From Ruania halotolerans (GTDB lineage: Bacteria > Actinomycetota > Actinomycetes > Actinomycetales > Beutenbergiaceae): a DNA stretch of 64,000 nt. Of this stretch, positions 10,330 through 64,000 are shown one piece after another. Position 1 is the first letter of the stretch, and each line of letters starts with the position of its first letter. Both the position numbers and the translations under genes were made by a program. The notes below the pieces were generated by a model. That model saw nothing but the letters and a program-made list of their open reading frames with translations, searched no databases and was not told the origin of the DNA. Where the stretch lies: assembly GCF_021049285.1 (NCBI RefSeq), contig NZ_CP088017.1, positions 2,863,380 to 2,927,379 on the forward strand, read 5' to 3'.

Positions 10330-11114
10330 CGCCCCAGGCCCTTCATCACGTCGAGCACCGAATCGGCCGAGGGGGAATCCATCACCTCGTGCACTCGGCC
10401 GTCGACAACGAACACGACGTGGTCGGCCCAAGCAGCGGCGTTCGGATCGTGGGTGACCATCACGATCGACTGATCATGCTCATCGACCGCTGACCGCAGA
10501 AAGCCGAGGATCTCCTGTCCGGACCGGGTGTCGAGGTTGCCGGTCGGCTCGTCGGCGAACACCACCTGCGGCCGGGCGACAAGCGCCCGGGCGATGGCAA
10601 CGCGCTGTTGCTGGCCGCCCGAGAGCTCCGCCGGCCGATGATGCATACGATCACCCAGGCCCAGCATCGACACGACCTGATCGAGCACTTCACCGCTCGG
10701 GCGACGGCCCGACAACGTCAACGGCAGGCAGATGTTCTCCTCGGCCGTGAGCGTCCCCACGAGATTGAACGACTGGAACACGAACCCGATCCGTTCTCGG
10801 CGCAGCATGGTCAGATCGCGGTCGTCGAGGGCCGACAGATCGGTATTGCCGACGAAGGCGCGGCCCGACGTCAGTCGATCCAGCCCGGCGGCGCAGTGCA
10901 TCATCGTCGACTTTCCCGAACCCGACGGGCCCATCACGGCCGTGAACTTCCCCGCCGGGAACGCGATCGTGACGTCGTCGAGAGCAGCGACGGCCGACTG
11001 GCCGGAGCCGTATCGCTTGACTGCTCCGACGAGCATCACCGCAACGTCATCACCGTTGGATGACTGCGCGTTCCCGAACGGATCAACGACTGTGGAATCT
11101 GGATGTGGGGACAC
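10326..11114 (-). CDS. LolD/MacB-type ABC transporter ATP-binding protein
   Basis: About 262 residues with Walker [11 protein letters not shown]-loop region [10 protein letters not shown], signature LSGGQQQR, Walker [10 protein letters not shown] and switch His in VMVTHDP. The DEPTGNLD sequence and the FQSFNL Q-loop are typical of the MacB/LolD subfamily that pairs with FtsX permeases, and the next gene is such a permease. GTG 11114 has GGAGG four bases upstream and is chosen over an upstream methionine at 11213. It heads the four-gene exporter/two-component operon. Confidence 0.92.
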
Positions 11115-11318
11115 GAGACCTCCGAAGAGTGGTTGGTGCCCACCACGATTCCGGCAGCCGCCGGCGGCCGAATCCGCCCACAGAAGGTGACGCGTACTCG
11201 CACGGGAGTACACGAGCGACCCGAACGGCCGACCTTGGTGGCAACGATCGGCCGAGGATGGTGAAGGCAGTCACGCTCGATAACCGCACACCCCAGGCAC
11301 ACGCACCGTTATGTCTAA

Positions 11319-11340
11319 TTCTGTCGGTCAGTAGACAGAA
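11319..11340. promoter_or_regulatory. Inverted repeat upstream of the ROK gene
   Basis: TTCTGTC-(8 bp)-GACAGAA is a perfect 7-bp dyad that ends 50 bp before the ROK regulator start. It is a good candidate operator for that regulator, although it could also serve the divergent ABC operon. Confidence 0.5.
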
Positions 11341-11390
11341 GTTCCGTCACCTATTGACGCAATGCATCGTCCAGCCCCAGACTCCCCCTC

Positions 11391-12557
11391 ATGGCAATGA
11401 CGTCACCCGGTTCGCGGCGCTCCCCCCGTGCCCACCATGAGGCCCGGGTGTTGGATGTGCTTCGAGTGCACGGCAGTGCAAGCCGTGCCCAACTGGCCGC
11501 CAGCACCGGACTGTCCCGGGCGACAATCTCGGCGATCACCTCCGACCTTCGGCAGTCCGGACTCATCATTCGCTCGAACTCGGTTGCCGCACATCCCGGT
11601 GTAGGCCGGACCCCGGAGCGCCTCACGTTGAACCCCGGCTCGTGCGTGATTGTCGGCGTGGAGTTCAGCCACACGCGCGTGACGGTCGCTGTCTCCGACG
11701 TGACACACCGCATTCTCGGATCCAAGGCGCGCGAGCACGGCCGCGACGAGCCATGGGTGCGACGGCTGGGCACAGCGACGGCATTCATCGACTCGCTCGT
11801 TGCCGCACCGTCGGAACCGATCGCCATCGGACTCGGCGTTCCGGGAGCGATCACCGGCCGAGAGACGGTCATGACGGGCCTCGAACAGCAGCTCGGCGAG
11901 AAATACGGTGTGCCGATCCGGATGGAGAACAATGCGCGCCTGGCAGGGCTCGCCGAGTTCTCCTGGGGGGCGGGCCGCGAGATGACGGACCTCATCTACC
12001 TCCGACTGTCCGAGGGTGTCGGAGGCGTGCTGATCGTCGACGGCGAGCCGCGCCTGGGAACCACCGGCTCAGCCGGGGAGCTGGGACACGTCTGTATCAA
12101 TCCGGACGGACCCATCTGCCGGTGCTCGAACCGCGGTTGCCTCGAGGCCTACGTCGGACTGGGCGCCTTGCTCGCCACCGCCGGTGCGAGCTCTGTCCCT
12201 GAGCTCATCGAGGCACTGGACCGCGCCGAACCGGGCGCGCAGGCCGCTATCACCGAGGCAGGTTCGCACATCGGTCTCGTGTTGGCGAACACGTGCCGCA
12301 TCCTGGATCTGTCGTCCATCGTCCTCGGTGGTCCGCTGGCACAGGTCGGCGAGCATCTCGTTCGCGTGGTGAAACAGACGATCATGCGACACGTGCACAG
12401 CACCGCTGCAGAACGCCTGCAGATTCGGGCCGCCGAGCTCGGAAACCTCGATGGCGCCTTGGGCGGTGTCGCGCTAGTACTTCGGGACCGGACGATCCCG
12501 GTCGGAACTCGCCCACTGCCTGCCCACGCTCGACGTACCGCAGACGCAGCGATATGA
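11391..12557 (+). CDS. ROK-family (NagC/XylR-type) transcriptional regulator
   Basis: About 388 residues. The N-terminal winged helix-turn-helix reads ARVLDVLRVHGSASRAQLAA followed by STGLSRATISAITSDL. The ROK sugar-kinase-like domain follows, with the zinc motif CRCSNRGCLE and the GLGVPGAI segment. The phosphate-binding motif at the domain start is degenerate (VGVEFSHTRVT lacks the DxGGT pattern), as expected for a repressor rather than a kinase. The next gene is a secreted GH43 enzyme, so the regulator likely responds to arabinose-type sugars or oligosaccharides. ATG 11391 and ATG 11397 are both possible starts. Confidence 0.9.
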   Translation: MAMTSPGSRRSPRAHHEARVLDVLRVHGSASRAQLAASTGLSRATISAITSDLRQSGLIIRSNSVAAHPGVGRTPERLTLNPGSCVIVGVEFSHTRVTVAVSDVTHRILGSKAREHGRDEPWVRRLGTATAFIDSLVAAPSEPIAIGLGVPGAITGRETVMTGLEQQLGEKYGVPIRMENNARLAGLAEFSWGAGREMTDLIYLRLSEGVGGVLIVDGEPRLGTTGSAGELGHVCINPDGPICRCSNRGCLEAYVGLGALLATAGASSVPELIEALDRAEPGAQAAITEAGSHIGLVLANTCRILDLSSIVLGGPLAQVGEHLVRVVKQTIMRHVHSTAAERLQIRAAELGNLDGALGGVALVLRDRTIPVGTRPLPAHARRTADAAI

Positions 12558-12693
12558 GATCGGCCGCCGTCCTGGCTCTTTGTTCCTGCCCGGTCGATCA
12601 GCGCGGTGGAACTGTCGGGACTTGCCCGGCGATGACGGGCCCGGCACCGGGACAACGAATACGGATGTGTGACATGAACAAGGGAGTAGTGGA

Positions 12694-14991
12694 ATGCGAA
12701 GGTCCATCAGCATCACAGGTGCCCTGGTCTTGCTGGCCGGCCTCCTCGTCCCGGGTCACGGCAACGCACAGGCGGATGACGCAATGACGACCTACACCAA
12801 CCCGGTATCGAGCAGCTTCACCGAGAACTTCGCCGACCCAACGATCATCCGCGGCCAGGACGGCTACTGGTACGCCTACGGCACCAATGGACGGCGCTTC
12901 GAGGGCGACGAGAAGCAGAACATGATGATCAGCAGGTCCCCAGACCTGGTGAACTGGGAGTGGGTCGGCCCGGTCTTCACACCCGAGACGATCCCCACCT
13001 ACGACGGGAAGCCCGCCGATGCGAACCGGCAGTTCTGGGCACCAGAGATCGCCTACCTCGATGGCCGCTACGTGCTCTACTACTCCTACGTCGTCCAGGG
13101 ACCAGGAACCCCGTGGCGGACCGTGGCCGCCGCCACAGCGGAGCATCCGGCGGGCCCGTGGACTGACACGGGCGAGGTCGTCGTCGGCAACGAGACCTGG
13201 GAGGTGCGACCTGGCGTCACGCAGATTCGCAACAACATCGATCCCGAGCTCGTCACGACCCCCGATGGCACGCGCTACCTCTATTACGGGTCGGTCCAGG
13301 GTGGCGTCCGAGTCGTCGAACTCTCTGCCGATGGTTTGCGCGCGGAAGGCGAACCCGTCCAACTGACCGATGCGCACCGCTACGAGGCCCCCTACGTGGT
13401 CTATCGCGACGGGTACTACTACATGTTCCTCTCGGTAATCGGCGGATGTTGTGCGGGCGCTGCATCCGGCTACCCCATCATGGTCGGCCGCTCGACGGAC
13501 CCCACCGGCCCGTTCCTCGATCGCGACGGCCACACGGTCAACGGCCCACAGGGCGGTGGGACACCCGTGCTGGCACCCAACGGCAACGAGTTCGTCAGCA
13601 CCGGCCACAATGCGATCGCCACCGACTTGTCCGGCCAGGACTGGATCGTCAGCCACGCGACCGATCGCTTCACCCCTTACGTGACGGGGACCGAGAACGC
13701 ACGAGGTCTCGCGCTCACGCGTCTCGACTGGATCGACGGATGGCCGATCGGCAACGCCGGTGAAGGCATGCCGTCCGGGCCCACGATCGGACCGGACAAC
13801 AGGTCCTTCATCAACGACCCGTTCGAAGACGGACTCGCCGGCTGGGAGACCGCGGAGGGATGGTCCCATCGTCAGGGACCGACCGGTGGGTACGTTCACA
13901 CGGAATCCGATGCTCCGCTGCGTTCGGCAGTCACCGTCGAGGGTGATCTGCGTGCCCGCGGGCTCGTGCGGTTGTCGGAAGGCACGGGCGGGCGGGCCGG
14001 CCTCTCCCTCCCGGCACAAGGTCGTCACCGCGTGACCGCGACGATCGACCGAGAGTCCGCGCAACTCGTCGTCACCGGCCCACCGGGAAGGAGAAGCCGC
14101 GAAGCCACTGCATCGCTGCCAGCGAACTTCAGCTACGGCACCTGGCACGAGATCGAGATGACCGTCTCCGACGGGCACCTCCGCGTCGCAGTCTCCGAAT
14201 CCGGGCAATACGACCCGGTCGCCGAGATCACGATCGACCTGCCGCGTGGTGTGCGCGATGGGCACGTGACTCTGCAGGCGGCGGGCACCGCTGCCGATTT
14301 CGACGACGTGACTGTCGCGCCCCTGTTCGCTCCAGTGACCGAGGCCGCACCCGACCCCACGGTCGGTTCACTCGATGAGTCCTACTCGGACGAGTTCGAC
14401 GGCGATCTCGCTGCGCAATGGCAGTGGTTGCGTGACCCTGGTGCCACGATCAGCGACGGCGGACTCGACTTCGCCATCCAGCGCTCAACCCTGATCAACC
14501 GGCGACCCCAGGCAGACACACTGCCCTCGCTCCTGCTGCGCGACATGCCAGAGGGCACCTGGACGGCCGAGACAAGAGTGACGGTTCCGTTCGATGACTC
14601 CATCCCCTACGGGTGGCCCCAGGCCGGGCTGATCGCCTACACCGATGATGACGAGTGGGTCGAGCTCGCGTATACGACCCGTGAATCGCGACGCTTCGTC
14701 GCCTTCGCGAGGGAAACCGACAGTGCCGGACCCGTTGCCTACGGGCATGCGGCGCTCGGGCCGAGCCGTGACACGATGTGGCTCCGGCTCAGGCATACGG
14801 TGGCCGCGAACGGCGAGCACCTCTACCGCGCCGCGATCAGCATGGACGGAGAGCACTGGGTCTGGCACGGCACACGTGTGCTCCCGGCCGGTCCGCAGCC
14901 CCAGGTCGGTCTGGTAGCGCAAGATCTGGCACAGCTGCCTGAGCAGGAACCGATCACCGCGCGATTCGACTGGTTCCGTACGTACCGCTAG
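12694..14991 (+). CDS. Secreted GH43 glycosidase (arabinanase-like) with C-terminal beta-sandwich
   Basis: About 765 residues. A Sec signal peptide spans roughly residues 1-26. The five-bladed propeller domain follows with the GH43 catalytic triad in recognisable context: Asp48 (NFADPTII), Asp183 (NNIDPELV) and Glu231 (RYEAPYVV). The NxIDP motif is like that of endo-arabinanases. From about residue 370 there is a LamG-like/jelly-roll segment, and from about 560 a GH43_C2/DUF1349-type sandwich (DEFDGDLAAQWQWLRDP). It probably cleaves arabinan or arabinoxylan outside the cell. It follows the ROK regulator by 136 bp. The exact GH43 subfamily and linkage cannot be fixed by eye. Confidence 0.88.
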   Translation: MRRSISITGALVLLAGLLVPGHGNAQADDAMTTYTNPVSSSFTENFADPTIIRGQDGYWYAYGTNGRRFEGDEKQNMMISRSPDLVNWEWVGPVFTPETIPTYDGKPADANRQFWAPEIAYLDGRYVLYYSYVVQGPGTPWRTVAAATAEHPAGPWTDTGEVVVGNETWEVRPGVTQIRNNIDPELVTTPDGTRYLYYGSVQGGVRVVELSADGLRAEGEPVQLTDAHRYEAPYVVYRDGYYYMFLSVIGGCCAGAASGYPIMVGRSTDPTGPFLDRDGHTVNGPQGGGTPVLAPNGNEFVSTGHNAIATDLSGQDWIVSHATDRFTPYVTGTENARGLALTRLDWIDGWPIGNAGEGMPSGPTIGPDNRSFINDPFEDGLAGWETAEGWSHRQGPTGGYVHTESDAPLRSAVTVEGDLRARGLVRLSEGTGGRAGLSLPAQGRHRVTATIDRESAQLVVTGPPGRRSREATASLPANFSYGTWHEIEMTVSDGHLRVAVSESGQYDPVAEITIDLPRGVRDGHVTLQAAGTAADFDDVTVAPLFAPVTEAAPDPTVGSLDESYSDEFDGDLAAQWQWLRDPGATISDGGLDFAIQRSTLINRRPQADTLPSLLLRDMPEGTWTAETRVTVPFDDSIPYGWPQAGLIAYTDDDEWVELAYTTRESRRFVAFARETDSAGPVAYGHAALGPSRDTMWLRLRHTVAANGEHLYRAAISMDGEHWVWHGTRVLPAGPQPQVGLVAQDLAQLPEQEPITARFDWFRTYR

Positions 14992-51977: not shown

Positions 51978-52328
51978 ATGCGCATCGGTGAACTCGCACA
52001 GCGCACCGGAGCGAGCATCCGATCGCTGCGCTACTACGAGAACCGGGGACTGCTCGCACCCGCTCGCACCGTGAGCGGACAGCGGCAGTTCGACGAGTCG
52101 GATGTCCATCGGGTCTCCCTCATCCGGCAACTCCTTGCGGCCGGCTTGGGCACCGCGGCCATCGCCGATGTACTGCCGTGCATGTCCGATCCTGCTGCGC
52201 AAACGTCTCTGCTCACGGCGCGGTTGATGAAAGAACGGGACCGGCTCACCAAGGAGATCGAGGAGCGAGTCACCACACGTGAGGCACTCACCGGGCTCAT
52301 TGACGCCGCACCTCCTCTGCATACCTGA
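51978..52328 (+). CDS. MerR-family transcriptional regulator
   Basis: One hundred and sixteen residues. MRIGELAQRTGASIRSLRYY followed by ENRGLLAPARTVSGQRQFDE is the complete MerR DNA-binding head, and the C-terminal coiled-coil helix is MKERDRLTKEIEERVTTREA. No cysteine effector site except a single Cys (VLPCMSD), so a small-molecule rather than a thiolate-metal sensor is likely. Divergent from the VOC gene and convergent with the sigma-factor gene, whose 3' end it overlaps by 32 bp. Confidence 0.92.
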   Translation: MRIGELAQRTGASIRSLRYYENRGLLAPARTVSGQRQFDESDVHRVSLIRQLLAAGLGTAAIADVLPCMSDPAAQTSLLTARLMKERDRLTKEIEERVTTREALTGLIDAAPPLHT

Positions 52329-53382
52329 TCGAGCCACCGTGGGGGCGCTCACGTGAGCGCGAAACCGGCGGACTTTCCCCTTCCCCACGCTCACCGTGAG
52401 CTGCTGTATCCACGAGACCGAAAGGGGCGAAGAGACGCTGATCGAAGAAGGCGACGACGCGGGAGATTCCCTCCTGAGTCAGGGTGAGCACTTGCAGGTT
52501 GAAGGGCCGGTGCACGCCGTCGTGGTCGGGTAGATACAACCCGAAGGCGGGCTGCCCGTTGGCCGAGGTGGGCACGAGCAGGTGATCACCAGGCCGCTGC
52601 GCGGGACTCTGTGCGGCGATCATCTGCCCGATCGTGCGCGCGCCGTGGAACCAGTCCGGATAAGGCGGCATTTCCCAGACGGCATCCTCGGTCAGGGTCG
52701 AGACGAGCGCTTCGACGTCGTTGGCGTGCATTGCGGTGACATAGCGATCGAGCAGCTCCCGCTGTTCAGGAGCGTCTGGTTCGATCACGTCGCTCTCGAG
52801 CAGTGGTGCCCGATCGAAATGTGCACGGGCCCGCTGCATCAGGCTGTTCACCGCGACTGGGCTCACCTCCAACATGTCAGCAACTTCGGCCGCACTGAAG
52901 GTCAGCACCTCTCGCAAGATGAACACGGCGCGCTGGCGGGGAGTAAGGCGCTGCAGGGCAGCGATGAACGCCAACCTGACGCTCTGGCGCTGAGCCACAG
53001 TGGCGAGTGGATCCTCTGCGCCGCCGGTACCGGCACCGAGCATGCTGTCGGAGAGAGGCTCCAACCAGGTGAGTTCCGGCGATTCGGTCAGTAGCGCCGC
53101 AGGATCCTGGCCCGGACCACCTAGACCGGTGGGCAGCACTCGGCGGCTGCGGTGTTCCAGTGACCGCAGGCACGTATTGGTGGCAATCCGATACAGCCAG
53201 GTGCGGATCGATGAGCGTCCTTCGAAACGGTGATAACCGCGCCAGGCGCGCACATAGGTCTCCTGAACCGCATCCTCGGCATCGTCGATCGAGGCCAACA
53301 TCCGATAGCTGTGGGCAAGTAGCTCAGCCCGATAAGGTCCGGCCCGCTCCTCGAAGTCATCCTCAACAACTCGCACAGTCAT
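52297..53382 (-). CDS. ECF sigma factor with SnoaL-like C-terminal domain
   Basis: About 361 residues. Region 2 covers ~18-84 (YRMLASIDDAEDAVQETYVR, then AWRGYHRFEGRSSIRTWLYR) and region 4 ~140-190 (LTPRQRAVFILREVLTFSAA, EVADMLEVSPVAVNSLMQRA). Residues ~205-320 form a SnoaL-like fold (LDRYVTAMHANDVEALVSTL; WFHGARTIGQMIAAQ), which marks the SigG/SigX5-type ECF group that is often regulated by its own extension rather than an anti-sigma factor. Its start overlaps the MFS stop (ATGA), so both come from one transcript. The 3' end overlaps a convergent MerR gene. Confidence 0.92.
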   Translation of the reverse strand: MTVRVVEDDFEERAGPYRAELLAHSYRMLASIDDAEDAVQETYVRAWRGYHRFEGRSSIRTWLYRIATNTCLRSLEHRSRRVLPTGLGGPGQDPAALLTESPELTWLEPLSDSMLGAGTGGAEDPLATVAQRQSVRLAFIAALQRLTPRQRAVFILREVLTFSAAEVADMLEVSPVAVNSLMQRARAHFDRAPLLESDVIEPDAPEQRELLDRYVTAMHANDVEALVSTLTEDAVWEMPPYPDWFHGARTIGQMIAAQSPAQRPGDHLLVPTSANGQPAFGLYLPDHDGVHRPFNLQVLTLTQEGISRVVAFFDQRLFAPFGLVDTAAHGERGEGESPPVSRSRERPHGGSIRYAEEVRRQ

Positions 53383-54803
53383 GACCTGATGGCCTGCTCT
53401 TGAGGGACATGGCGCAACAGGACCACTGCGAGTACTGCCCCGAGGGCAGCGATGGCGGCCAGCGCCAAGAGAGCGGCCCCGAACCCCTCGGTCAACTCGG
53501 CAACTGACGGCGTAGCGACGTTTCCTCGGGTGGCGTAGCCGATCGCAATCGCCGAGGCCAGTGCCGCACCTACCGTCGTGCCGACGGCGAAGGACGTCTC
53601 CTCCACCCCCGCCGCCAGCCCCGCGTGCTCCTGCGCAACACCGGTCAACGCGGCGATCTGGCCGGCAACGAACGCGGCACCCATCCCAGCACCGAAGACG
53701 AGAAGTCCAGCCAGCAGGTTCTTCACCACGGTGCCGTCAGGGGTGAGGCTGCTGAGCAGCACACAGGCGATGGCCAACAAGACCAGGCCCCCGCTCGCCA
53801 CGCGACGAAAGCCGGCCCGCGTGACCAGATGCTGCCCGGCAAAGACTGCGATCACGGAGGTGACTGTCATGATCGCCATCGTCAGGCCGAACTGGATCGC
53901 CGAGAGGCCGAGCACTTGCTGGGCGTAGAGGGTCACGATAATCAGCAGACCATCAACGGCGACACCGGCGACCAGAATGACGAGGTTGCCGCCGACGAGC
54001 GTTCGCGAGGCGAAGATGCTCAGCGGCACCAGCGGGACCGGGCTGTACCGCTCGATCACGACGAACATAGCCGTCAAGATCACGGCACCGGCACCGAAGG
54101 CCAAGGTGAACGGGCCGATTCCGTGCTCAGCGATGCGGAACAACGCCAAGAGCGTCAGCACTAGTGCACCGGTGGCGGTGATTGCGCCCGGCAGGTCAAG
54201 CGCCCGCCTATTGCGTACTCCGCGCGGAAGCAGAACGGGGCATACGATCACCACGATCACGCAGACCGGCACGTTCGTGTAGAAGATCCAGGCCCACCCG
54301 ACCCAGTCAGTCAGCACGCCTCCAAGCAGTAGTCCGGCTGATGCGCCGATCCCGCCCAAACCTCCCCAGAGACCGAGCGCTTTGTTGCGCTCAGGTCCTT
54401 CAGGAAAGACGTGCATCAGGATCGATAGCCCGGCCGGTGTCATCACCGCAGCACCCACCCCCTGGAGGACCCGTGCGGCGATCAGCATCTCGCTCGAAAC
54501 GGCCAGGCCGCACCCCAGCGAGGCTGCGGCGAACACCGCGACGGCGGCCATGAACACCCGTCGTTGCCCCATATGGTCTGCCAACCGGCCGCCCAAGAGC
54601 AGCAGCCCGCCCACTGCCACCCCGTAGGCCGTGATCACCCACTGGATCTCCGCCGGTGCGAACCCGACGTCGCGCGCGATAGCCGGTAGCGCGGCGTACA
54701 CGCTCGTGGAGTCCAGGACGCCCATGAACATCGCCATACAGACCACGGCCAGCACCCACCATCGCCGTACCGTCTCCATCACCTGAGTTTCAGTGCTGAC
54801 CAC
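53379..54803 (-). CDS. MFS drug-efflux transporter (DHA2, 14-helix type)
   Basis: About 474 residues with roughly 14 helices. Motif A is GGRLADHMGQRRVF, and motif C-like GGLGGIGASAGLLLGGVL follows. GTG 54803 sits four bases after AGGAGG. The last four bases overlap the sigma factor start, giving an exporter-sigma operon. This differs from the MFS gene at 35-37 kb in sequence but is the same family. Confidence 0.9.
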   Translation of the reverse strand: MVSTETQVMETVRRWWVLAVVCMAMFMGVLDSTSVYAALPAIARDVGFAPAEIQWVITAYGVAVGGLLLLGGRLADHMGQRRVFMAAVAVFAAASLGCGLAVSSEMLIAARVLQGVGAAVMTPAGLSILMHVFPEGPERNKALGLWGGLGGIGASAGLLLGGVLTDWVGWAWIFYTNVPVCVIVVIVCPVLLPRGVRNRRALDLPGAITATGALVLTLLALFRIAEHGIGPFTLAFGAGAVILTAMFVVIERYSPVPLVPLSIFASRTLVGGNLVILVAGVAVDGLLIIVTLYAQQVLGLSAIQFGLTMAIMTVTSVIAVFAGQHLVTRAGFRRVASGGLVLLAIACVLLSSLTPDGTVVKNLLAGLLVFGAGMGAAFVAGQIAALTGVAQEHAGLAAGVEETSFAVGTTVGAALASAIAIGYATRGNVATPSVAELTEGFGAALLALAAIAALGAVLAVVLLRHVPQEQAIRS

Positions 54804-54997: not shown

Positions 54998-55014
54998 ATG
55001 ATATTGATAGTCAT
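54998..55014. promoter_or_regulatory. Candidate metal-repressor (Zur/Fur-like) box
   Basis: ATGATATTGATAGTCAT is a partial dyad (ATGA..T.TGA..TCAT) of the size and AT-richness of Fur-family operators in an otherwise GC-rich 328-bp spacer. It lies about 118 bp before the surface-protein gene of the metal-type ABC cluster. Assignment to Zur rather than another Fur-family protein is an inference from the neighbouring genes. The spacer 54804-55131 otherwise shows no hairpin or small gene. Confidence 0.4.
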
Positions 55015-55131: not shown

Positions 55132-57900
55132 ATGCATCACAGACCTGTCACGATCGGTGCCACGACGGGGGTACTGGCACTCGCCCTCAGCGGCCTCATA
55201 CTGGTCTCCCCCGCGGCGGCCCTCGACGGCCACGCACCGGCACCCACCGAGGTGCGCGTCCTCTCCCGCATCCACACCGACGCCGTCTCCACTTTCATCG
55301 ACGATGGCGCGCTGGCGCTGGCGTCACAAGCCGATGTGCCCGAGGGCGACGGCACCCGCCTGGATCCTGCGGCCACCATCTTCCACCTCGACGACGACGC
55401 GAGGACCACGGTCCCACCTGGCTACGACTTCATCGCCGAACCTGGCAGCGAGGTGTGGGTAGCACCTGAGGGCAATCCCATGGGAAGCGAGGGCTATGAA
55501 CAGCTCTGGCCCGGCTTCTCAACCGAATCGGTGCCCGCGGGCGCCCTGGAGAACGATCGGACCGCGTTCACGCTGACCGAGGTCACAGGCCCAGGCGACC
55601 TGGAACTGTACACCGGTAGCGGAGAGAACCTCGATCGACTGTGGTCCAGTGACGACAACGTCGACACCTTCACCATGGGCCGCACGCACATGCACGCGAA
55701 CTGGGCCTTCACCGAACCGGGCACGTATCAGATCGATGTGACCGCCACCGCGGCCGGCACCGGCGGCTCAACTCTCTCGGCGAGTGCGACCTACACGTTC
55801 GTGGTCGGCGATCTCGCCGCTCCGAGGGCCACCAGCACCGACCTGTCCGTCGATGTGAGTGCCATCACCGAGAACGAACGGGTGACACTCACCGCGAGCG
55901 TCCTCCCCGCCGATCTGGACGGCTATGTCGAGTTCTACGACGGTGAGAGGATCCTGGGTCACGAGCGGCTGGACAGTGGCTCGACGAGCATCCAGACCAC
56001 TGCCGTGCGGTTAGGAGTTCGCGAGCTGACAGCGCATTACGTGCCCATGGACACACGCACCGCTGCGCCATCGACGTCCGAGCCGGTCACCGTCACAGTC
56101 CTGGAAGAGGGTGCCGAGGACCAGTTCGGCATCGCCGGCTGGAAGGACACCTACGCCGCCGGCGAGAACGTCGAGCTTTCGGCGCAGGGCGTCAGTCTCG
56201 AGCAGAACGAAGAGCTGCGGTGGCACACCCGTCGATCGGCGTCCGCCGACCAGACCTACGTGAGCATCGGATCCGACCCCCGGATGCTCCCGAATATCTC
56301 GACCCACTGGAACGAGGTGCAGATCCGGCTGTCGGTATGGGACGCGGTGGAGAAGGAGTACACCCAGGAGACGGCATGGCACACCTTCACCGTCAGCGGT
56401 GCCAACCAGGGCTCCGGCGAGCAGCTCACCATCTCGGGGATGAACGAGAGGTACTACCTCGGCGACACGTGGAGCGTCACCGTCGAGCACTCCGGTCTGG
56501 ACGAGGGCGAGACAATCCGTTTCGCCACCCGCTCCTTCCCCTACGGCACCGAATACGACTCGATGGAGTCCCAGCAGGTGCAGGTCGAAGGCACCAGCGT
56601 CACCCTGCAGACGTCATGGATGGACAGCTCGTGGACCGACCAGCCCACGAGTGAGGGGGTGTTGCAGATCGTGTCCTCGGACGGCACGGTCCTGGGACAG
56701 TCGGCACCCTTCGCGCCCTACATCAGCAAGCGCGAGCTCATCCTCACGGGTGGTCAGGACATCTATCGCGTCGGTCAGACGATCGAGCTGAACAGTAGCC
56801 TCGAGCCGGGCCGCGAGGGCCTCGAGTACCAGTGGGGTTACGGCATCAGCCAGTGGCAATTCGAGCCGATTGACGGTGCCACCTCCACCACCGTCTCCCT
56901 GCCGGTGACGGCAGAGATGGACGGCAGGACGCTCGGCCTGCTCGTGAGCGACGCCGCAACCGGCGCGAGTGTCAACTACGCCCCCTTCGAACTCCGGGTG
57001 GTCGACGCTGCCGACGGTGAACAGGTGGTCATCATCGACGGGCTCGGAGCCCACGGCAGCCACTATCACCAGGGCACCACCATCGAACTGCGAGCACTGG
57101 CGGACCCGGCGGCAGCCGATACGGATACCTTCCGCTGGGAGTGGCAACGCCCGGACCAGGCTGACTGGCATCTCATGGAAACAGCGACGGCCGCAGAGCA
57201 CGAGGTCATCGCCGAGCAGGCGCTGGACGGAACTCTGGTTCGGGTCACCATGATGAACGAGGCCGGTGAGGCGCTCGCAACCAGCCCGTCGGCAACGATT
57301 CTCGTCGATGACCACGGCGCCGATCCTCGCCAGAACGTCCAGATCGCCGGGCTCGAGGAGTCGTATACCGCGGGCGAGGAGATCACCCTGACCGCCTCGG
57401 TCGACCCGGACTCGGTGCTGTCGCGGTACGCCTGGACCCTCACCCCGCACGGTGGTGAGCCACGAACCATCGACAGTGGCGGATCCGCACAGCTGGTCCT
57501 GCCCGCCACCGAGGATCTCGACGGCGCCGCGATCAGCGCCGCTCTCGTCTTCGATGACGCCTCGACCTACGTCGCCTCAGAGCCCGTGACACTCGCCGTC
57601 ACCCCAGCACCAGCGGACCCGGACGACGGCACCACCGCCCCGGATGACGACATCACCACTCCGACCGAGGACGGCGCGGCGCCTGGGCAGCAGGAACCCA
57701 GGGACGGCGCAACGCAGGACGAGTCCGGGGACGACGCAGCGCAGGGTGAGAGTGGCACAGGAGGCCCGGGCGCCGGCGCCGCACTTGCGGAGACAGGATC
57801 CGAGAGTATCGGCGCGGGGCTCGTCATGGCCTGCGTGCTGCTCCTGCTCGCAGGTGCCGCGCTCGTGGCACGAGCCAAGCACGCTGGTGAATATCGCTGA
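55132..57900 (+). CDS. LAxTG-anchored surface protein with choice-of-anchor M domain
   Basis: About 922 residues. A Sec signal peptide ends after SPAAA (~residue 30). Residues ~40-235 form a choice-of-anchor M/actinobacterial surface-anchored domain ending at THMHANWAFTEPGTYQIDV (His186, His188). An Ig-like domain (~240-330) follows, then about five ~90-residue Ig-like repeats, several opening with GL/GM..Y..GE/GD (for example GLEESYTAGEEITLTASV). A Thr/Asp/Gly-rich spacer leads to LAETG (885-889), a transmembrane segment and a short basic tail: a class E sortase (LAxTG) signal. It is convergent with the metal-type ABC operon and probably part of the same system. Function is inferred only. 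Confidence 0.88.
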   Translation: MHHRPVTIGATTGVLALALSGLILVSPAAALDGHAPAPTEVRVLSRIHTDAVSTFIDDGALALASQADVPEGDGTRLDPAATIFHLDDDARTTVPPGYDFIAEPGSEVWVAPEGNPMGSEGYEQLWPGFSTESVPAGALENDRTAFTLTEVTGPGDLELYTGSGENLDRLWSSDDNVDTFTMGRTHMHANWAFTEPGTYQIDVTATAAGTGGSTLSASATYTFVVGDLAAPRATSTDLSVDVSAITENERVTLTASVLPADLDGYVEFYDGERILGHERLDSGSTSIQTTAVRLGVRELTAHYVPMDTRTAAPSTSEPVTVTVLEEGAEDQFGIAGWKDTYAAGENVELSAQGVSLEQNEELRWHTRRSASADQTYVSIGSDPRMLPNISTHWNEVQIRLSVWDAVEKEYTQETAWHTFTVSGANQGSGEQLTISGMNERYYLGDTWSVTVEHSGLDEGETIRFATRSFPYGTEYDSMESQQVQVEGTSVTLQTSWMDSSWTDQPTSEGVLQIVSSDGTVLGQSAPFAPYISKRELILTGGQDIYRVGQTIELNSSLEPGREGLEYQWGYGISQWQFEPIDGATSTTVSLPVTAEMDGRTLGLLVSDAATGASVNYAPFELRVVDAADGEQVVIIDGLGAHGSHYHQGTTIELRALADPAAADTDTFRWEWQRPDQADWHLMETATAAEHEVIAEQALDGTLVRVTMMNEAGEALATSPSATILVDDHGADPRQNVQIAGLEESYTAGEEITLTASVDPDSVLSRYAWTLTPHGGEPRTIDSGGSAQLVLPATEDLDGAAISAALVFDDASTYVASEPVTLAVTPAPADPDDGTTAPDDDITTPTEDGAAPGQQEPRDGATQDESGDDAAQGESGTGGPGAGAALAETGSESIGAGLVMACVLLLLAGAALVARAKHAGEYR

Positions 57901-57918
57901 CCCGGCGCCACGATGGAC

Positions 57919-57954
57919 GAGAAGGGCGCGGCCCCGCGGGGCCGCGCCCTTCTC
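57919..57954. terminator. Bidirectional hairpin terminator
   Basis: GAGAAGGGCGCGGCCCC and GGGGCCGCGCCCTTCTC form a perfect 17-bp stem with a two-base centre, between the converging surface-protein gene and the ABC permease gene. No T-tract on the plus side. Confidence 0.85.
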
Positions 57955-57968
57955 CGTGTCGCTCCGCG

Positions 57969-58880
57969 TCAGACCTTGGCGTCCGCCGGCTCCTGGTGCG
58001 CGGCTCCCACCTGGCCGGTGCGCGCGGATCCGGCCCGCAGCTTGCCGAGGAGACCGTGGCGCGGTGCGAGCACCCAGGTGAGCAGGAAGACCGCCGTCGA
58101 GAGCAGCACGATCGAACCGCCGGTCGGCAGATCGATGGCCCAGGAGAGGTACAGCCCCACGAACGCGCAGGAGGCACCGATCGCCGGGGCGAGGACCATC
58201 ATGGCGCCGAGCCGGTCGGTGAGCAGGCGGGCCGTGGCTGGTGGCACCACCAGCAGCGCAACCACCAGCACATTGCCGATCACCTGCACCGAGACCACGA
58301 CAGCGATCGCGACCATCACATAGAGCGCGACGTCCAGTGCAAGCACGGGCAACCCTGCCGAACGGGCCATCTCCCGGTCCAGGCTGACCGCCACGAGTTC
58401 CTTGTGCAGCGCGAACGCCGCACCCAGCATCGCCAGGCCGGCGATCGCGACGACGTACACGTCCGAGTCCGGGATGCCGGTGATCGAGCCGAAGAGAAAA
58501 CTCTGTAACGAACCGGAATAGCCCGGTGCCGTGGAGATGATCACGATGCCGAGCGCGAACGAGGCAACGAAGAAGATCCCGATGATCGAGTCCTCCTTCA
58601 GCCGCCGGTTCTGCGCGACGATCGCCACGCAGATCGCGGTGACGACGCCTGCGACCATGCCGCCCAGCACGAGCGATCCCTGCAGTACGAACGCAACGGC
58701 CAATCCGGGGAACACGGCGTGCGCCACGGAGTGGCCCACGAAGACCATGCCGCGCAACACCACATGAGTGCCGATCACTCCGCAGATGATCGCCGACATC
58801 GCCGCCACCAGCAGCGCCTTCGGCAAGAAGGTCAACATGGGGTTGGTCAGGTCCTGGAAGAACTCGCCGAGGGTCAGCAT
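57969..58880 (-). CDS. Metal-type ABC transporter permease (anchored-repeat system)
   Basis: About 303 residues and eight or nine helices. The ABC-3 (ZnuB/MntB) signature is visible: GMVFVGHSVAHAVFPGLAVA, RRLKEDSIIGIFFVASFALG and the final VVALLVVPPATARLLTDRLG. This is the membrane channel of an importer for zinc, manganese or a related ligand. ATG 58880 shares one base with the ATPase stop (TGATG). The cytosolic C-terminal tail is longer than usual and ends in EPADAKV. Confidence 0.92.
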   Translation of the reverse strand: MLTLGEFFQDLTNPMLTFLPKALLVAAMSAIICGVIGTHVVLRGMVFVGHSVAHAVFPGLAVAFVLQGSLVLGGMVAGVVTAICVAIVAQNRRLKEDSIIGIFFVASFALGIVIISTAPGYSGSLQSFLFGSITGIPDSDVYVVAIAGLAMLGAAFALHKELVAVSLDREMARSAGLPVLALDVALYVMVAIAVVVSVQVIGNVLVVALLVVPPATARLLTDRLGAMMVLAPAIGASCAFVGLYLSWAIDLPTGGSIVLLSTAVFLLTWVLAPRHGLLGKLRAGSARTGQVGAAHQEPADAKV

Positions 58881-59683
58881 CACGCCACCCCCAGCGCGTC
58901 CAGCAGCGGGGAGCCTGCTCGGAAGCCGAACGCCCGGATCCACACGTCAGGGTTGCGCAACTCGGCAGGGGCACCATCGGCCACCACGGTGCGATTGATG
59001 AGGTAGAGCCGATCGAAGGTGTACATGGCCGCCGCGAGATCGTGGGTGGTCATCACCAGAGACCGACCCTCACCGCTCAGTTCGGTGAACAGGTCGGTGA
59101 GGAGCTCCTGGGTGGGGATGTCCAGTCCGGTGAATGGTTCGTCGAGCAGGAGCAACGCGGGGCGCAGTGCGAGGGCACGAGCGACCAGGACGCGCTGGCG
59201 CTGCCCACCGGAGAGCTCTCCGACCGGTCGCCTGGCCAGATGCGACATTCCCACTCGGTCCAATGCCTCATTCGCCGCGCGATAGTCCGCAACCCCGGCC
59301 CGGCGCAGCCACCCGATGGCGCCGACCCGGCCGGAGAGGACCACGTCCGCCACACTGATCGGAAAGTCCCAGGCGAACTCGTGCCGTTGTGGCACGTAGC
59401 CCACCCGGCTCCTGGCCGCCCTGGCGGAGCCGTCGCCAAGGGTGATCTCCCCCGCACGGACCGGGATGAGCCCAAGCACCGAGCGGATCAGGGTGGTCTT
59501 GCCCGCACCGTTCGGCCCGATGAGCCCGGTGAGCTCGCCGGCGCCGGCCGTCAGATTCACGTCTCGCAACACGCTACGCCCGCCGAGATCTACGGCCAGG
59601 CCCCGCACTGAGAGCTCACTCGCGGTGCCAGCACCTGCGGTGCTCATCGGTCTGGCCTCATTCGCGGTGCTCGTCTCAGTCAT
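58880..59683 (-). CDS. Metal-type ABC transporter ATP-binding protein
   Basis: About 267 residues. Walker A GPNGAGKTTL, signature LSGGQRQRVL, Walker B LLLLDEPFTGLD and switch His in LVMTTHDLAAAM. The PQRHEFAWDFPISVADVVLS segment after the Q-loop is characteristic of ZnuC/MntA-like ATPases. ATG 59683 overlaps the end of the upstream surface gene by eight bases. It works with the permease that follows. Confidence 0.92.
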   Translation of the reverse strand: MTETSTANEARPMSTAGAGTASELSVRGLAVDLGGRSVLRDVNLTAGAGELTGLIGPNGAGKTTLIRSVLGLIPVRAGEITLGDGSARAARSRVGYVPQRHEFAWDFPISVADVVLSGRVGAIGWLRRAGVADYRAANEALDRVGMSHLARRPVGELSGGQRQRVLVARALALRPALLLLDEPFTGLDIPTQELLTDLFTELSGEGRSLVMTTHDLAAAMYTFDRLYLINRTVVADGAPAELRNPDVWIRAFGFRAGSPLLDALGVA

Positions 59684-60671
59684 CGCTGTGCTCCCTAGCG
59701 CTCTCACGGTGCGCTTCGGCACGAGCCCGCCGCGAGCGCACCGTACTGACGGTGATCACCGCCCCCAGGAGCACCACCGCTGCAGTGGTGACGATGGCGA
59801 CGATCGGGATCGAGCCCGAGTCGTCCTGATCGGCGACCGGTCGCGCGTCTGCCTCGGACTCGGAGTCGCCTCCATTCGCCGTCGTTGTTCCCTCACCACC
59901 ACGCTCCTGGTCGCCCTCGGCGGCGGGGTAGATGGCCGAGAAGGCCTCGGCCGGGTCCGTTTCCTGCCCGACGGCGAAGCGCAGGATATCCCGGTCGCTC
60001 GCCGTGGTCCCGTCCACCAGTTCCGCGGTGAGTTCGACATCGAGCAGGTAGATGCCGGGTTCGGTGAAGATCCAGTTTCCGTGCACATGCGTGTTGGTAT
60101 CGGCCCAGATGTCCTGCGCTTCGCTCGTATCGGAGGACCACAACAACTCGGCGTCGTCGAAGTTCCCGCTCTGCAAGAACAGGGTGAACTGCCCAGGCCC
60201 GTCCATCCCGTGGAACCGCAAGGTCATCCCCCTGGCCAGTTCGGCCACTACTTCCGGGTCCTGGCTGTTCCAGCCCACCCACGGTGCGTCGAAGTTCTCC
60301 GTTTGCGGCACCACGTAGAGGTCGGCGCCGGCTTCGGCGTCGATGAAGGCGAACTGCTCCTCCTCGGGGGCGGGCAGTACGGCCGCGTCGCCGAGGTGGA
60401 ACACGACGTCGTCCAGTTGCCGCCACACCGCAGGTGCGGTGGTGTCGTCGCGGGCGAGAATCTGCCACTGACCATCGATCAGGCGCGGGCCGACATCGAC
60501 ATGGCCCTCGGTCACGACTACTTGTTCATCGCCGATCTCCTCCCCGGACCCGACGGTCTGGTCCAGCGAGTCGTCAGTGGCGGCCAGTGCCGGGGCGGTG
60601 GTGCCGATGATGACACCGGCGGCAAGCACGCTCGCGCCGAGGAGGCAGGGTACGGTCCGTGTGGGAGACAA
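59676..60671 (-). CDS. Membrane-anchored choice-of-anchor M domain protein
   Basis: About 331 residues. Signal peptide (ends APALA, ~30). Residues ~50-235 are the complete surface-anchored domain: GHVDVGPRLIDGQWQ, DDTTAPAVWRQLDDVVFHLG, APWVGWNSQD and NTHVHGNWIFTEPGIYLLDV (His195, His197). There is an acidic Gly/Ser-rich spacer, and then a single transmembrane helix (SIPIVAIVTTAAVVLLGAVI) with a basic cytosolic tail. There is no LAxTG motif, so this protein stays in the membrane rather than the wall. Its position between solute-binding protein and ATPase genes suggests a ligand relay to the importer. Confidence 0.88.
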   Translation of the reverse strand: MSPTRTVPCLLGASVLAAGVIIGTTAPALAATDDSLDQTVGSGEEIGDEQVVVTEGHVDVGPRLIDGQWQILARDDTTAPAVWRQLDDVVFHLGDAAVLPAPEEEQFAFIDAEAGADLYVVPQTENFDAPWVGWNSQDPEVVAELARGMTLRFHGMDGPGQFTLFLQSGNFDDAELLWSSDTSEAQDIWADTNTHVHGNWIFTEPGIYLLDVELTAELVDGTTASDRDILRFAVGQETDPAEAFSAIYPAAEGDQERGGEGTTTANGGDSESEADARPVADQDDSGSIPIVAIVTTAAVVLLGAVITVSTVRSRRARAEAHRESAREHSDD

Positions 60672-60690
60672 CGCGGGGTCCTCGAATTCT

Positions 60691-62289
60691 CTAGGTCAGG
60701 CATTCGTGTAGGGAATCGGCATTGGCACGCATCATCTCGACGTAAGTGGTGACCTCTTCGTCGAATGCGTCGCCGTAGATCGGGCACACCCGCACGCCCA
60801 GCTCGTCGGCGGTCTGCGTCAGCGTGGAGGATCGGCTGATCAGATTGGGTTCGAGGAAGACCGCGGGGATCTGCAGGTTCTGAATCGTCTGAACGAGGCG
60901 CCTGCGCTCCTGGATACTGGGCTCGGTCGACGGGTTCGGGGTCACGAATCCCGCGATCTCGATGTCGTAGGCCGAACCGAGGTAGCCGAATGCATCATGC
61001 GTGGTGACGAGGTGTCGACGCGGGGCAGGGATATCGGCGATCGTCTCCTCGACGTAGGTGTCGAGCTCCTCCAGCTCGCGGAGATAGTCGCGCGCATTGG
61101 CGCGATACTCCTCAACCCCGTCCGGATCGATCTCGATCGCCGTGTCGCGGATGATCTCCACGTACGCCTGGGCATTGCCGACGTTCTGCCACAGGTGCGG
61201 GTCGATCTCACCGTGCACGTGAGCGCCGAGGACGGCCTGGGGCAACTGGTAGATCTGCTCTCCGGCGCGCCCGAGGAACCGGTACACCGGATCGGGCGGG
61301 ATCTCGTGCAGCGCACGCGTGGGCACGTCGATCACGACATCCTCTGCTGCGTACTCCTGCTGCGTGTGGTCACCACCGCCGTGCGGGTCCGCGAACAGAT
61401 AGATCTGGTCGGAGTCGATGTCAACGGTCACATCGGCGTGGCCTCGGGACAGGACGGTGGAGTCCTCGTGTCCGGGCACTGAGTGCGGATCGACGCCGAC
61501 GGCGAAGGTGAACGTGGTCTCCTCCCCGACGCCCGCAGTGGTAGCGGAGTCCACGGCAACCTCGGCCCGTACGGTGAGCTCGTAGATACCCGGCTCGGTG
61601 AATGCCCAGCTCATGTGGGTGTGGGCATCTGGAGGCAACCGTGTGAGGTCACCGGCATCGAAGCCATCAGTGGAGTCAAGGGAGAACGCCGGTTCACCGA
61701 ACGTCTGCGTGAGATAGGCGAACATGTCCCCCGGGCCGCTCACATCCACGGCATAGAGATTCACCTGGGAACTCCGGTCGGCTCCCAGCTCCGCCCCAGT
61801 TCCGCGCACCCGCATGCCGAGCCAGATCGTGTCCAGGGAGACGTTCTCCACCAGCGGGATGATCTCCGCGGCGTAGCGGACGGCGGACTCGGCGAGGGAG
61901 ACGTTCGGGACGCCGTCGGGAAGGTTCGCGTCCACGGTGCGGATGATCGACTGGTCCTCGAGCATCATGTAGTTCGAAAAGGCCGCATCGGCGTAGGCCA
62001 CGGACCGCACGTCCCGCAGGGTGGGCTCATAGCTGTGCGGATCGGCTCCCTCGGGAACGAGCTGGGTCACCTCCATCCGGTCGCCCACCACATTCTCGGC
62101 GAGATCTGCCACGATGCCCGTGGTGGTGACGATGGAGAGCCCTTCGTCCTCGCTCTGCGCGGCGGGCGCGGCACACCCGGCAAGTCCGGTTCCGAAAGCG
62201 GCGAAGGCTGCGACGATCAGGGCAGGCCGGCGCCGTCCCCACCCGGAATGGACCGGGTGGCGACGAAGATCCCGATCAGCGCCGGACAC
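60691..62289 (-). CDS. Metal-binding lipoprotein with inserted anchor-M domain (solute-binding protein)
   Basis: About 532 residues. Lipobox LAGC (Cys39). The ZnuA/TroA fold is split. Lobe 1 (~51-140) has the first ligand His85 (EGADPHSYEPT). Lobe 2 (~320-532) has His365 (EIDPHLWQNV), His431 (VTTHDAFGYLG), and Asp507 (YGDAF), the usual His-His-His/Glu-Asp set. Between them (~145-300) lies an anchor-M-type domain with DAHTHMSWAFTEPGIYEL (His223, His225) and a His-containing loop (DPHGGGDHTQQEY). GTG 62289 is the start, overlapping the upstream gene by 14 bases. The TIGR-type anchored-repeat solute-binding family has this build. It would capture metal, or a metal-bearing ligand, at the membrane surface. 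Confidence 0.88.
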   Translation of the reverse strand: MSGADRDLRRHPVHSGWGRRRPALIVAAFAAFGTGLAGCAAPAAQSEDEGLSIVTTTGIVADLAENVVGDRMEVTQLVPEGADPHSYEPTLRDVRSVAYADAAFSNYMMLEDQSIIRTVDANLPDGVPNVSLAESAVRYAAEIIPLVENVSLDTIWLGMRVRGTGAELGADRSSQVNLYAVDVSGPGDMFAYLTQTFGEPAFSLDSTDGFDAGDLTRLPPDAHTHMSWAFTEPGIYELTVRAEVAVDSATTAGVGEETTFTFAVGVDPHSVPGHEDSTVLSRGHADVTVDIDSDQIYLFADPHGGGDHTQQEYAAEDVVIDVPTRALHEIPPDPVYRFLGRAGEQIYQLPQAVLGAHVHGEIDPHLWQNVGNAQAYVEIIRDTAIEIDPDGVEEYRANARDYLRELEELDTYVEETIADIPAPRRHLVTTHDAFGYLGSAYDIEIAGFVTPNPSTEPSIQERRRLVQTIQNLQIPAVFLEPNLISRSSTLTQTADELGVRVCPIYGDAFDEEVTTYVEMMRANADSLHECLT

Positions 62290-64000
62290 GGAGGCGACGA
62301 GAGCCCACCACTGCGAGCACACCGATGATCGCGGCCAGTGCACTTGCCATGGCGAGACTACCGAGGTCGGTCTGCGTTCCGGTCGAGGCCAGTGAGCAGG
62401 GCTGCCCAGAGGCAGTGCGGCCAGTCGTCGCATCATCGCCGCTCTCCTCCTCCGCGGCCGCGCCGTCTGCACTGTCTTCACTGCCGTCAGGCGCAGCGCT
62501 CTCCTCCTCGGAGGTGTCGTCACCAGAAGCGAAGGTGATCACCCCGGCCCCGGCGCTCACCTGGGCCGCGGAGGACGGGTCGTCCTGACCCACCGAGAAG
62601 CGCAGCGTGTCCGTGGCACTTTCGCCATCGGCGCTGAGCGTGAAGGTCACCGCGTAGGCGCCCGGCTCGGTGAAGACCCAGTTGCCGTGCTGGTGGGTGT
62701 TCGCCGGGATGGTGTAGGAGAGCGGACCCCCGACGGTGTCGACCACCCGTTCTCCGACCAGCTGACCGAAATTGCCGTTGAGGAAGATGGCCAGCTCACC
62801 CGGCCCTTCCACGGACTCGAGCGTCATCTCGACGCCGTTCGCCCCCGGGCCGTTGACGATCGTCTCGTGCTGGGTGTTCCAGCCCAGCCACGGCACCCCG
62901 GCCTCCTGGTTCTGCTGGATCATCCACACGTCCTGACCCTGCGGTGCGATGAAGGACAGGTCGTCCGGGACGATATCTGCATCCCGGCGTGCGTGGGAGT
63001 CGTCCAGGACGAAGACGACCGTGCTCGGATCGCGCCAGACCGGCGGTGCGGTCCGATCGTCCTTGACCTGCATCTCGAAGGTGCCGTCATCGACCACGGC
63101 GCCGAAGTCGAAGTGGCCTTCGGTGCCGTAGACCACCGATCCGGTCGCTCCGGACGAGCCACCCGAACCACTGCCGGAGTCAGAGCCCGATCCGGAGCCA
63201 TTGGACTCCACGGGGAAGCACTGAGGCGGCGTCCCGGACCCGTTGTCCTTCTGCGGCTGCACCGGGGTCGGTCCCGCGTCTGAACCGTCCGGATCCGGGA
63301 CCTCCTCATCCGGTGTCGGCCTCGGCGTCGGGTCCGGGGTCTCCTCGTCCGGATCCGGCGTCTCGTCCACGGCCGCCGGAAGGACTGTCAGTGCCGTCCA
63401 GCCGACGAGGGTGTTCTCGCGGTCCACCACGGCCACACGGTGCTCACCGGGCGCGGTGCCTGCCGGGATCGCTGCCTGGAAGGCGCCCTCACCATCGGTC
63501 AGCACCCAGTCGTTCGTCACGGCCGCCGGGTCGGAGTACAGGAACGCCGCTCCGTACGCGTCAGCCACCGCAGGCGCCAAGATGGTGACCTGCTCGCCTG
63601 CGCGAACCTCGTTCGGGTCGACGGAGACGTCACCACTCGTGGCCTCAGTCAGCTCGCCGGCATCGGGGGCCTGAGGTGAAGTTGCTGGTGGTTGCAAGCA
63701 GTCCCGATAGTCGTCGGGCAACTCATCACCCACGCTGAAGAGATACCGCGCAGTGTCCGTCGTGGTCTCGGCACCCGTCCCCGAGTTCGTCGCTGTCGCG
63801 CTCACGGTGAGGTAGTAGGCACCCGGTTCGGTGAACGCCCAGTTGGCGTGCACGTGTGCCAGGTAGTCCTGGTGGATCGTCCCGGGCAGCTGGTATCGCT
63901 CATCGGTCAGCACCGAGCGCAGCTCACCGAAGGATCCATTGGTCCACAGGTAGACCTCGCCCGGGCCGTCGACATCGGTGATGTCGATATCGACAGTGTC
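62276..64000 (-). CDS. LAxTG-anchored surface protein with two anchor-M domains (5' end outside window)
   Basis: The frame is open to the window edge; 574 codons are visible. Domain 1 is partial and contains AHVHANWAFTEPGAYYLTV (in-window His49, His51). A short Ig-like segment (VDPNEVRAGEQVTILAPAVA) and a long Pro/Asp/Glu and Gly/Ser spacer follow. Domain 2 is complete: GHFDFGAVVDDGTFEMQV, DDRTAPPVWRDPSTVVFVLD, VPWLGWNTQH and NTHQHGNWVFTEPGAYAVTF. A TEESG-rich spacer leads to LASTG at ~537-541, a hydrophobic segment and an Arg-rich tail. It is the most upstream gene of the cluster seen here. The wall form is likely sortase-linked. Confidence 0.88.
   Translation of the reverse strand, partial: DTVDIDITDVDGPGEVYLWTNGSFGELRSVLTDERYQLPGTIHQDYLAHVHANWAFTEPGAYYLTVSATATNSGTGAETTTDTARYLFSVGDELPDDYRDCLQPPATSPQAPDAGELTEATSGDVSVDPNEVRAGEQVTILAPAVADAYGAAFLYSDPAAVTNDWVLTDGEGAFQAAIPAGTAPGEHRVAVVDRENTLVGWTALTVLPAAVDETPDPDEETPDPTPRPTPDEEVPDPDGSDAGPTPVQPQKDNGSGTPPQCFPVESNGSGSGSDSGSGSGGSSGATGSVVYGTEGHFDFGAVVDDGTFEMQVKDDRTAPPVWRDPSTVVFVLDDSHARRDADIVPDDLSFIAPQGQDVWMIQQNQEAGVPWLGWNTQHETIVNGPGANGVEMTLESVEGPGELAIFLNGNFGQLVGERVVDTVGGPLSYTIPANTHQHGNWVFTEPGAYAVTFTLSADGESATDTLRFSVGQDDPSSAAQVSAGAGVITFASGDDTSEEESAAPDGSEDSADGAAAEEESGDDATTGRTASGQPCSLASTGTQTDLGSLAMASALAAIIGVLAVVGSRRLRVRR

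Follow-up and report, generated by a model that had tools for sequence, protein, structure and literature searches.

Introduction

Among the ways in which Gram-positive bacteria move scarce metals across a thick wall, perhaps the best case is heme: in the staphylococcal Isd relay one domain type, NEAT, is repeated at the wall and at the membrane, and a lipoprotein and permease carry out uptake. In this article I will discuss a six-gene locus of Ruania halotolerans that would offer a zinc version of such passage. It lies at the right end of the stretch of DNA analysed here, the window, which covers 64,000 nucleotides (positions 2863380-2927379) of a single-contig 4.27-Mb genome, and it belongs to the kind that NCBI family names call the "anchored repeat ABC transporter" (TIGR03770-03773, NF038134). 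The domain described by NF038134, hereafter the M domain, occurs on two surface proteins and a membrane-anchored protein of the locus, and judged by its sequence a circularly permuted copy, with its halves swapped, is inserted in the substrate-binding protein (SBP). This turns a loose idea, that zinc is handed on between shared domains, into one that is specific and testable.

The closest described system is that of Corynebacterium diphtheriae, where znuAECB with znuF and znuG form a zinc-repressed cluster linked to zinc uptake in August 2025 in the Journal of Bacteriology (PMC12445094), and the view of the earlier sequence-only reading of the window, that the function of such clusters is poorly described, is out of date. 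In that species ZnuE is required for znu-dependent growth in zinc-poor medium, a His-to-Ala ZnuE fails to complement, and ZnuE, ZnuF and ZnuG all show zinc-dependent thermal shifts (PMC12445094); the dip0438-dip0445 cluster is under the control of Zur and zinc (PMC6711530). Similar wall proteins of C. pseudotuberculosis have been linked to predicted Zur sites (PMC3022926), anchored-repeat members of Cutibacterium acnes are regulated (PMC10045295), and those of Gardnerella vaginalis are among the genes most induced in simulated genital-secretion medium (PMC11979175). A further likeness, by description and not by fold, is to the streptococcal Pht proteins, surface zinc-binding proteins proposed to feed the zinc SBP AdcAII (PMC12445094); the HxxHxH motif of the Pht proteins differs from the HxD/HxH pair discussed below.

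The locus and its relatives

Open reading frames together with NCBIfam and Pfam scans confirm a six-gene set at 55132-64000, in the order and on the strands that the sequence-only reading had given: wall1, SBP, ZnuE-like protein, ATPase and permease follow one another on the minus strand, and wall2 converges on the permease from the plus strand (wall1 and wall2 are the LAxTG surface proteins).

55132..57900, plus strand: wall2, LAETG-anchored surface protein of 922 aa with one M domain (residues 43-225) and Big_3_5
57969..58943, minus strand: ABC-3 permease, ZnuB-like, TIGR03770 (423.7 bits, cut-off 296.8), also matching PF00950
58880..59722, minus strand: ATPase, ZnuC-like, TIGR03771 (349.6 bits, cut-off 268.8)
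59676..60671, minus strand: ZnuE-like membrane-anchored M-domain protein of 331 aa (NF038134, 173.3 bits)
60691..62289, minus strand: ZnuA-type solute-binding lipoprotein with an inserted domain (LAGC lipobox), TIGR03772 (745.5 bits, cut-off 350.45)
62276..64000 and on to the equivalent of 65899, minus strand: wall1, LASTG-anchored surface protein of 1207 aa with three M domains

The family models thus bear out the proposed homology of permease, ATPase and SBP, and the M domain that had been noticed in four proteins scores above the NF038134 cut-off of 55 bits in every one, at 220.5 bits for the part of wall1 in the window, 141.9 for wall2 and 90.4 for the SBP in addition to the ZnuE-like value above. 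The in-window part of wall1 also passes TIGR03773 (283.3 bits, cut-off 190.3), a model that the ZnuE-like protein (176.1) and wall2 (115.8) miss, so the cut-offs of all four models TIGR03770, TIGR03771, TIGR03772 and TIGR03773 are exceeded at the locus. Counted together, the wall-anchored M domains come to four copies. In wall2 the motifs IHTD (55270-55281) and HMHANW (55687-55704) precede the anchor LAETG (57784-57798); the LASTG of wall1 is at 62378-62392, and its gene runs beyond the window end, the complete frame being 8656-12279 of a 19.9-kb stretch around the locus (L008). Class E sortases read LAxTG, and of the two sortase matches in the genome the one scanned passes the class E model. 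The true start of the permease is probably near 58880 and that of the SBP gene probably the GTG at 62289; the stop of wall1 overlaps the latter at 62276-62289, which suggests coupled translation of wall protein and SBP.

With its SBP, ZnuE-like protein, ATPase, permease, wall M proteins and HxD/HxH motifs, the locus resembles C. diphtheriae znuAECB-znuF-znuG (dip0438-dip0443), including the place of a ZnuE-like protein with one HxD/HxH motif between the SBP and ATPase genes. Unlike in that species, wall1 precedes the SBP, wall2 is convergent with the permease, and LAxTG is present in wall1 and wall2 alike, whereas ZnuF of C. diphtheriae is without such a signal. The ZnuE-like protein itself has GHVD at 60495-60506 and HVHGNW at 60072-60089, followed by a C-terminal helix and tail; its H27, D29, H165 and H167 are unchanged in all 35 aligned sequences. 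An AlphaFold2 model of its 301-residue form (mean pLDDT 88) predicts strands and a helix at 260-299. A second-look search (VIA) gave no convincing relative.

A permuted domain inside the substrate-binding protein

The SBP departs from the canonical ZnuA fold by an insert: positions 1-82 and 97-263 of PF01297 match it as separate pieces about 176 residues apart, and the insert ends shortly before the sequence HVHGEIDPHLW.

61237..61833 (ends approximate), minus strand: M domain inside the SBP, circularly permuted by its sequence, C-terminal half first and N-terminal half second

The M profile matches the SBP in swapped order, positions 74-184 and then 1-73, a feature that the sequence-only reading had missed, and a similar split is found in all nine SBPs of a 59-genome sample (R. 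halotolerans and 58 relatives), with the first piece running from about 51-77 on and the second covering about 1-74. Because hhalign, comparing profiles of ZnuE-like proteins and SBPs, pairs M119-205 with SBP138-227 (E 2e-16) and M10-93 with SBP228-313 (E 4e-10), the halves of the domain are taken to be exchanged. The motifs follow suit, HTHMSW (61606-61623) coming first and GHAD (61432-61443) second, shortly ahead of HVHGEIDPHLW. To see how general this is, consider the named loci, the best 80 of 417 relatives from a contig scan: HxH stands ahead of HxD in 80 of 80 SBPs, at a median distance of 60, whereas among 396 ordinary M-domain envelopes outside the SBP the order is HxD before HxH in 340 and the reverse in none. 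These loci were retrieved with peptide patterns around VHGE[IV]DPH, of which the motif order is independent and the presence of that stretch is not. In M numbering the permutation cut is at about M93-98; the predicted ZnuE-like structure has strands 87-91 and 100-105 on either side of it, so that the new ends would be neighbours, as an inserted domain requires.

ZnuA-type matches were found in 52 loci and 40 were parsed, two of them anchored-repeat SBPs; of the 38 canonical ZnuA that are left, 14 have at least five His within the 60 residues ahead of the second ligand motif, which is where the SBP carries its insert. In ZnuA such a His-rich loop would serve the cleft. The SBP retains the ZnuA ligand motifs DPHSY, DPHLW, THDAF and YGDAF, and H47, H327, H393 and D469 of the mature form, which I take to be the ZnuA metal ligands (three His and an acidic fourth), are invariant in 34 aligned SBPs, as are the M-site residues H185, H187, H246 and D248 and the two His of HVH, H319 and H321. 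For ZnuA of C. diphtheriae three His are stated (PMC12445094). HVHGE, at 61207-61221 just ahead of the second ligand motif, is possibly a hand-off site; the stretch HxH[GE][ED]x[DN]PHx[WF] is present in 79 of the 80 named SBPs, a count that the retrieval patterns favoured.

Compared with canonical ZnuABC and AdcABC, then, the locus shares an ABC-3 permease, an ATPase and a ZnuA-family SBP with conserved His motifs, and differs in having a permuted M domain in place of the His-rich stretch of some ZnuA and in its wall and membrane partner proteins. C. diphtheriae ZnuA likewise has the swapped motif order, in a system where zinc and Zur control are known (PMC12445094, PMC6711530); the available sections of PMC12445094 note the reversed order and do not describe a permuted, inserted domain, a comparison made by description and not by sequence. 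The transporter kind is already known, and what is added here is the permuted insert, the Zur-like sites before the wall genes and the co-occurrence of M domain and SBP.

Candidate Zur operators

A position weight matrix was built from five distinct Zur sites of C. glutamicum (PMC2823685), and its two best sites in the 19.9-kb stretch stand before the two wall genes.

54999..55013, strand not specified: candidate Zur operator TGATATTGATAGTCA, 118 nt before the wall2 ATG, 15.3 bits
65 nt before the wall1 start, between wall1 and a COG0523 remnant: second Zur-like site AGATAGTGGTTTTCA, 14.7 bits

TGATATTGATAGTCA is the top-scoring site of both the window and the 19.9-kb stretch, where the third-best site reaches 9.8 bits and where 3 of 200 Markov copies reached 15.3 bits. 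It has three mismatches to TGATAATNATTATCA, and at least one match that close arose in 8 of 200 shuffles of the 19.9-kb stretch and 15 of 100 of the window. The named loci extend the pattern: a site scoring at least 15 bits is present in 64 of 80, where ten rounds of Markov copies gave 3.8 on average, and a threshold of 20 bits leaves 42 loci, where the copies gave 0.1. In 41 of 81 loci (the window's included) the best site lies close to where an M-domain or SBP frame starts, against about 17% expected, with nearness judged by a rough interval rule and the expectation taken from the area covered. Twelve sites, mostly outside these intervals, had their neighbours read by eye, and some precede COG0523-like, L28-like or L31-like genes, gene kinds that are listed among Zur targets (PMC2823685). 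Of the 80 named loci, 11 contain COG0523-like frames. The COG0523 (cobW) GTPase remnant of R. halotolerans is broken and divergent from wall1 (12435-12971 of the 19.9-kb stretch, genome 2929434 on, outside the window); PF02492, a model of 180 positions, is matched at 1-57 only (genome 2929446-2929610). Zur may bind at this locus.

Distribution

M domain and SBP go together. In the 59-genome sample the genomes with the M domain are precisely the nine whose SBP passes TIGR03772, namely R. halotolerans itself, none of seven congeners, four of 16 others of the family and four of 35 others of the order. Of 246 genomes of the class, 20 carry the SBP (E up to 1e-60), and each of these also has the M domain (E up to 1e-10), which is present in 21; the single genome with the M domain alone (G569, C4:3368944-3369362) holds two fragments in different frames, a broken remnant. 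TIGR03772 is passed in three of 396 genomes of a phylum sample, R. halotolerans included. The order SBP, ZnuE-like protein, ATPase, permease is kept in the 26 loci listed, and a wall gene precedes the SBP in most of them; none was found before the SBP in L082 and L083, and L091 starts at a contig end. The best 80 relatives include Streptomyces, Micromonospora, Conexibacter and Solirubrobacter, the closest named SBPs among them being those of Georgenia, Nesterenkonia and Occultella.

Two observations concern individual loci. Microbacterium esteraromaticum strain B Mb 05.01 (L128) and Frigoribacterium sp. JB110 (L129) have 16.2 kb in common, the locus included, at 98.4% identity, which on sequence grounds suggests recent transfer between genera. 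In genome G015 (C2:748343-749781; L024, L077) the SBP frame is broken near profile position 375 and the remaining locus is intact.

Interpretation and alternatives

Gene content, the permutation, the place of the insert, the operator-like sites and the co-occurrence are the observations from which I argue. Of the sequence-only proposal that the system takes up zinc or manganese, metal import is supported and manganese is not: the locus very probably imports zinc, which the Zur-like sites here and the zinc- and Zur-regulated relative in C. diphtheriae make the most likely metal. On balance, by a little, I favour a zinc importer of the anchored-repeat (znuAECB-FG) kind under Zur regulation, in which the M domains of wall proteins, ZnuE-like protein and SBP supply the zinc. 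When zinc is scarce, Zur would leave the promoters of both wall genes, and production of wall proteins, ZnuE-like protein and ABC transporter would follow; the four wall M domains would bind zinc at their HxD/HxH sites, increasing the local supply; the ZnuE-like protein would carry zinc to the membrane face; the SBP's own permuted M domain would take it and pass it, by way of the adjacent conserved HVH, to the ZnuA cleft; and permease and ATPase would import it from there. The step of zinc being handed from one M domain to another is plausible, with a probability somewhat short of even. More tentative still is the fullest version, in which the SBP is a ZnuA whose His-rich loop has been replaced by a permuted wall-type zinc domain, zinc passes from wall to membrane to SBP to cleft, and the whole would be to zinc what the NEAT relay is to heme, except that its final station is fused into the SBP. 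The likeness to Isd is one of working only, a single domain type at wall and membrane with a lipoprotein and permease; Pfam hits of the locus proteins (E 0.001) include no NEAT domain, and unlike in Isd the cargo would be zinc, and a copy of the shared domain is part of the SBP.

Several results weigh against this picture. In C. diphtheriae the His-to-Ala ZnuE still shifts with zinc, which leaves the motif's role in binding open, deletion of znuF or znuG singly left growth of a znu-only strain in zinc-poor medium unaffected, deletion of znuA had a modest effect, and deletion of znuF-445 brought back the peak growth of a znuAECB mutant (PMC12445094); the deletion data speak against an obligatory chain and, taken with the His-to-Ala result, do not establish that zinc must pass by way of the HxD/HxH site. 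At sequence level, a His-rich stretch at the place of the insert is absent from 24 of the 38 parsed canonical ZnuA, and 56 of the 396 ordinary M-domain envelopes are without one of the motifs as the pattern was written. As for Zur, the site scores are moderate, 15.3 bits being reached in 9 of 100 Markov copies of the window, a scan with the consensus TGAAAATSATTTTCA gave no match here, 16 of the 80 named loci are without a site of 15 bits by the matrix scan, and both Fur-family proteins of the genome fall short of the NCBIfam Zur model.

The main rival holds that the M-domain proteins of the wall store zinc or compete for it, buffering it or sequestering it from neighbours, with import left to ZnuE and the ABC parts alone. 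The C. diphtheriae genetics fit this at least as well, since plasmid-borne ZnuF or ZnuG lowered growth, the znuF-445 result points the same way, and sequestration and storage are options that the authors themselves raise (PMC12445094). I regard it as unlikely, though a serious contender, in R. halotolerans: the wall1 stop overlaps the SBP start, the genomes sampled have M domains together with the SBP, and proteins that only stored zinc would not call for the same domain in the SBP. That the cargo is another metal such as manganese, or a zinc-bearing small ligand instead of Zn2+, is quite improbable: the SBP does also match the manganese SBP models MntC and EfaA, and among solved relatives MntA is the best by sequence, but the Zur-like sites here and in relatives, the COG0523-like, L28-like and L31-like genes that reading by eye places next to some of them, and the zinc effects in C. 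diphtheriae (PMC6711530, PMC12445094) all speak for zinc. Least probable is that the wall proteins are adhesins merely sharing the transporter's regulon, given that HxD/HxH is conserved in ZnuE-like proteins, that the same domain is also inside the SBP and that the His-to-Ala ZnuE fails in C. diphtheriae (PMC12445094).

Other genes of the genome

Two more ZnuA-type SBPs are encoded in the genome, at 3677650 and 4193323, both without an M domain and without a His-rich stretch, and R. halotolerans may have up to three such importers. At 52297-54803 the locus is adjoined by two overlapping genes, one for a SigX5-type sigma factor that also has a SnoaL-like match and one that is MFS exporter-like.
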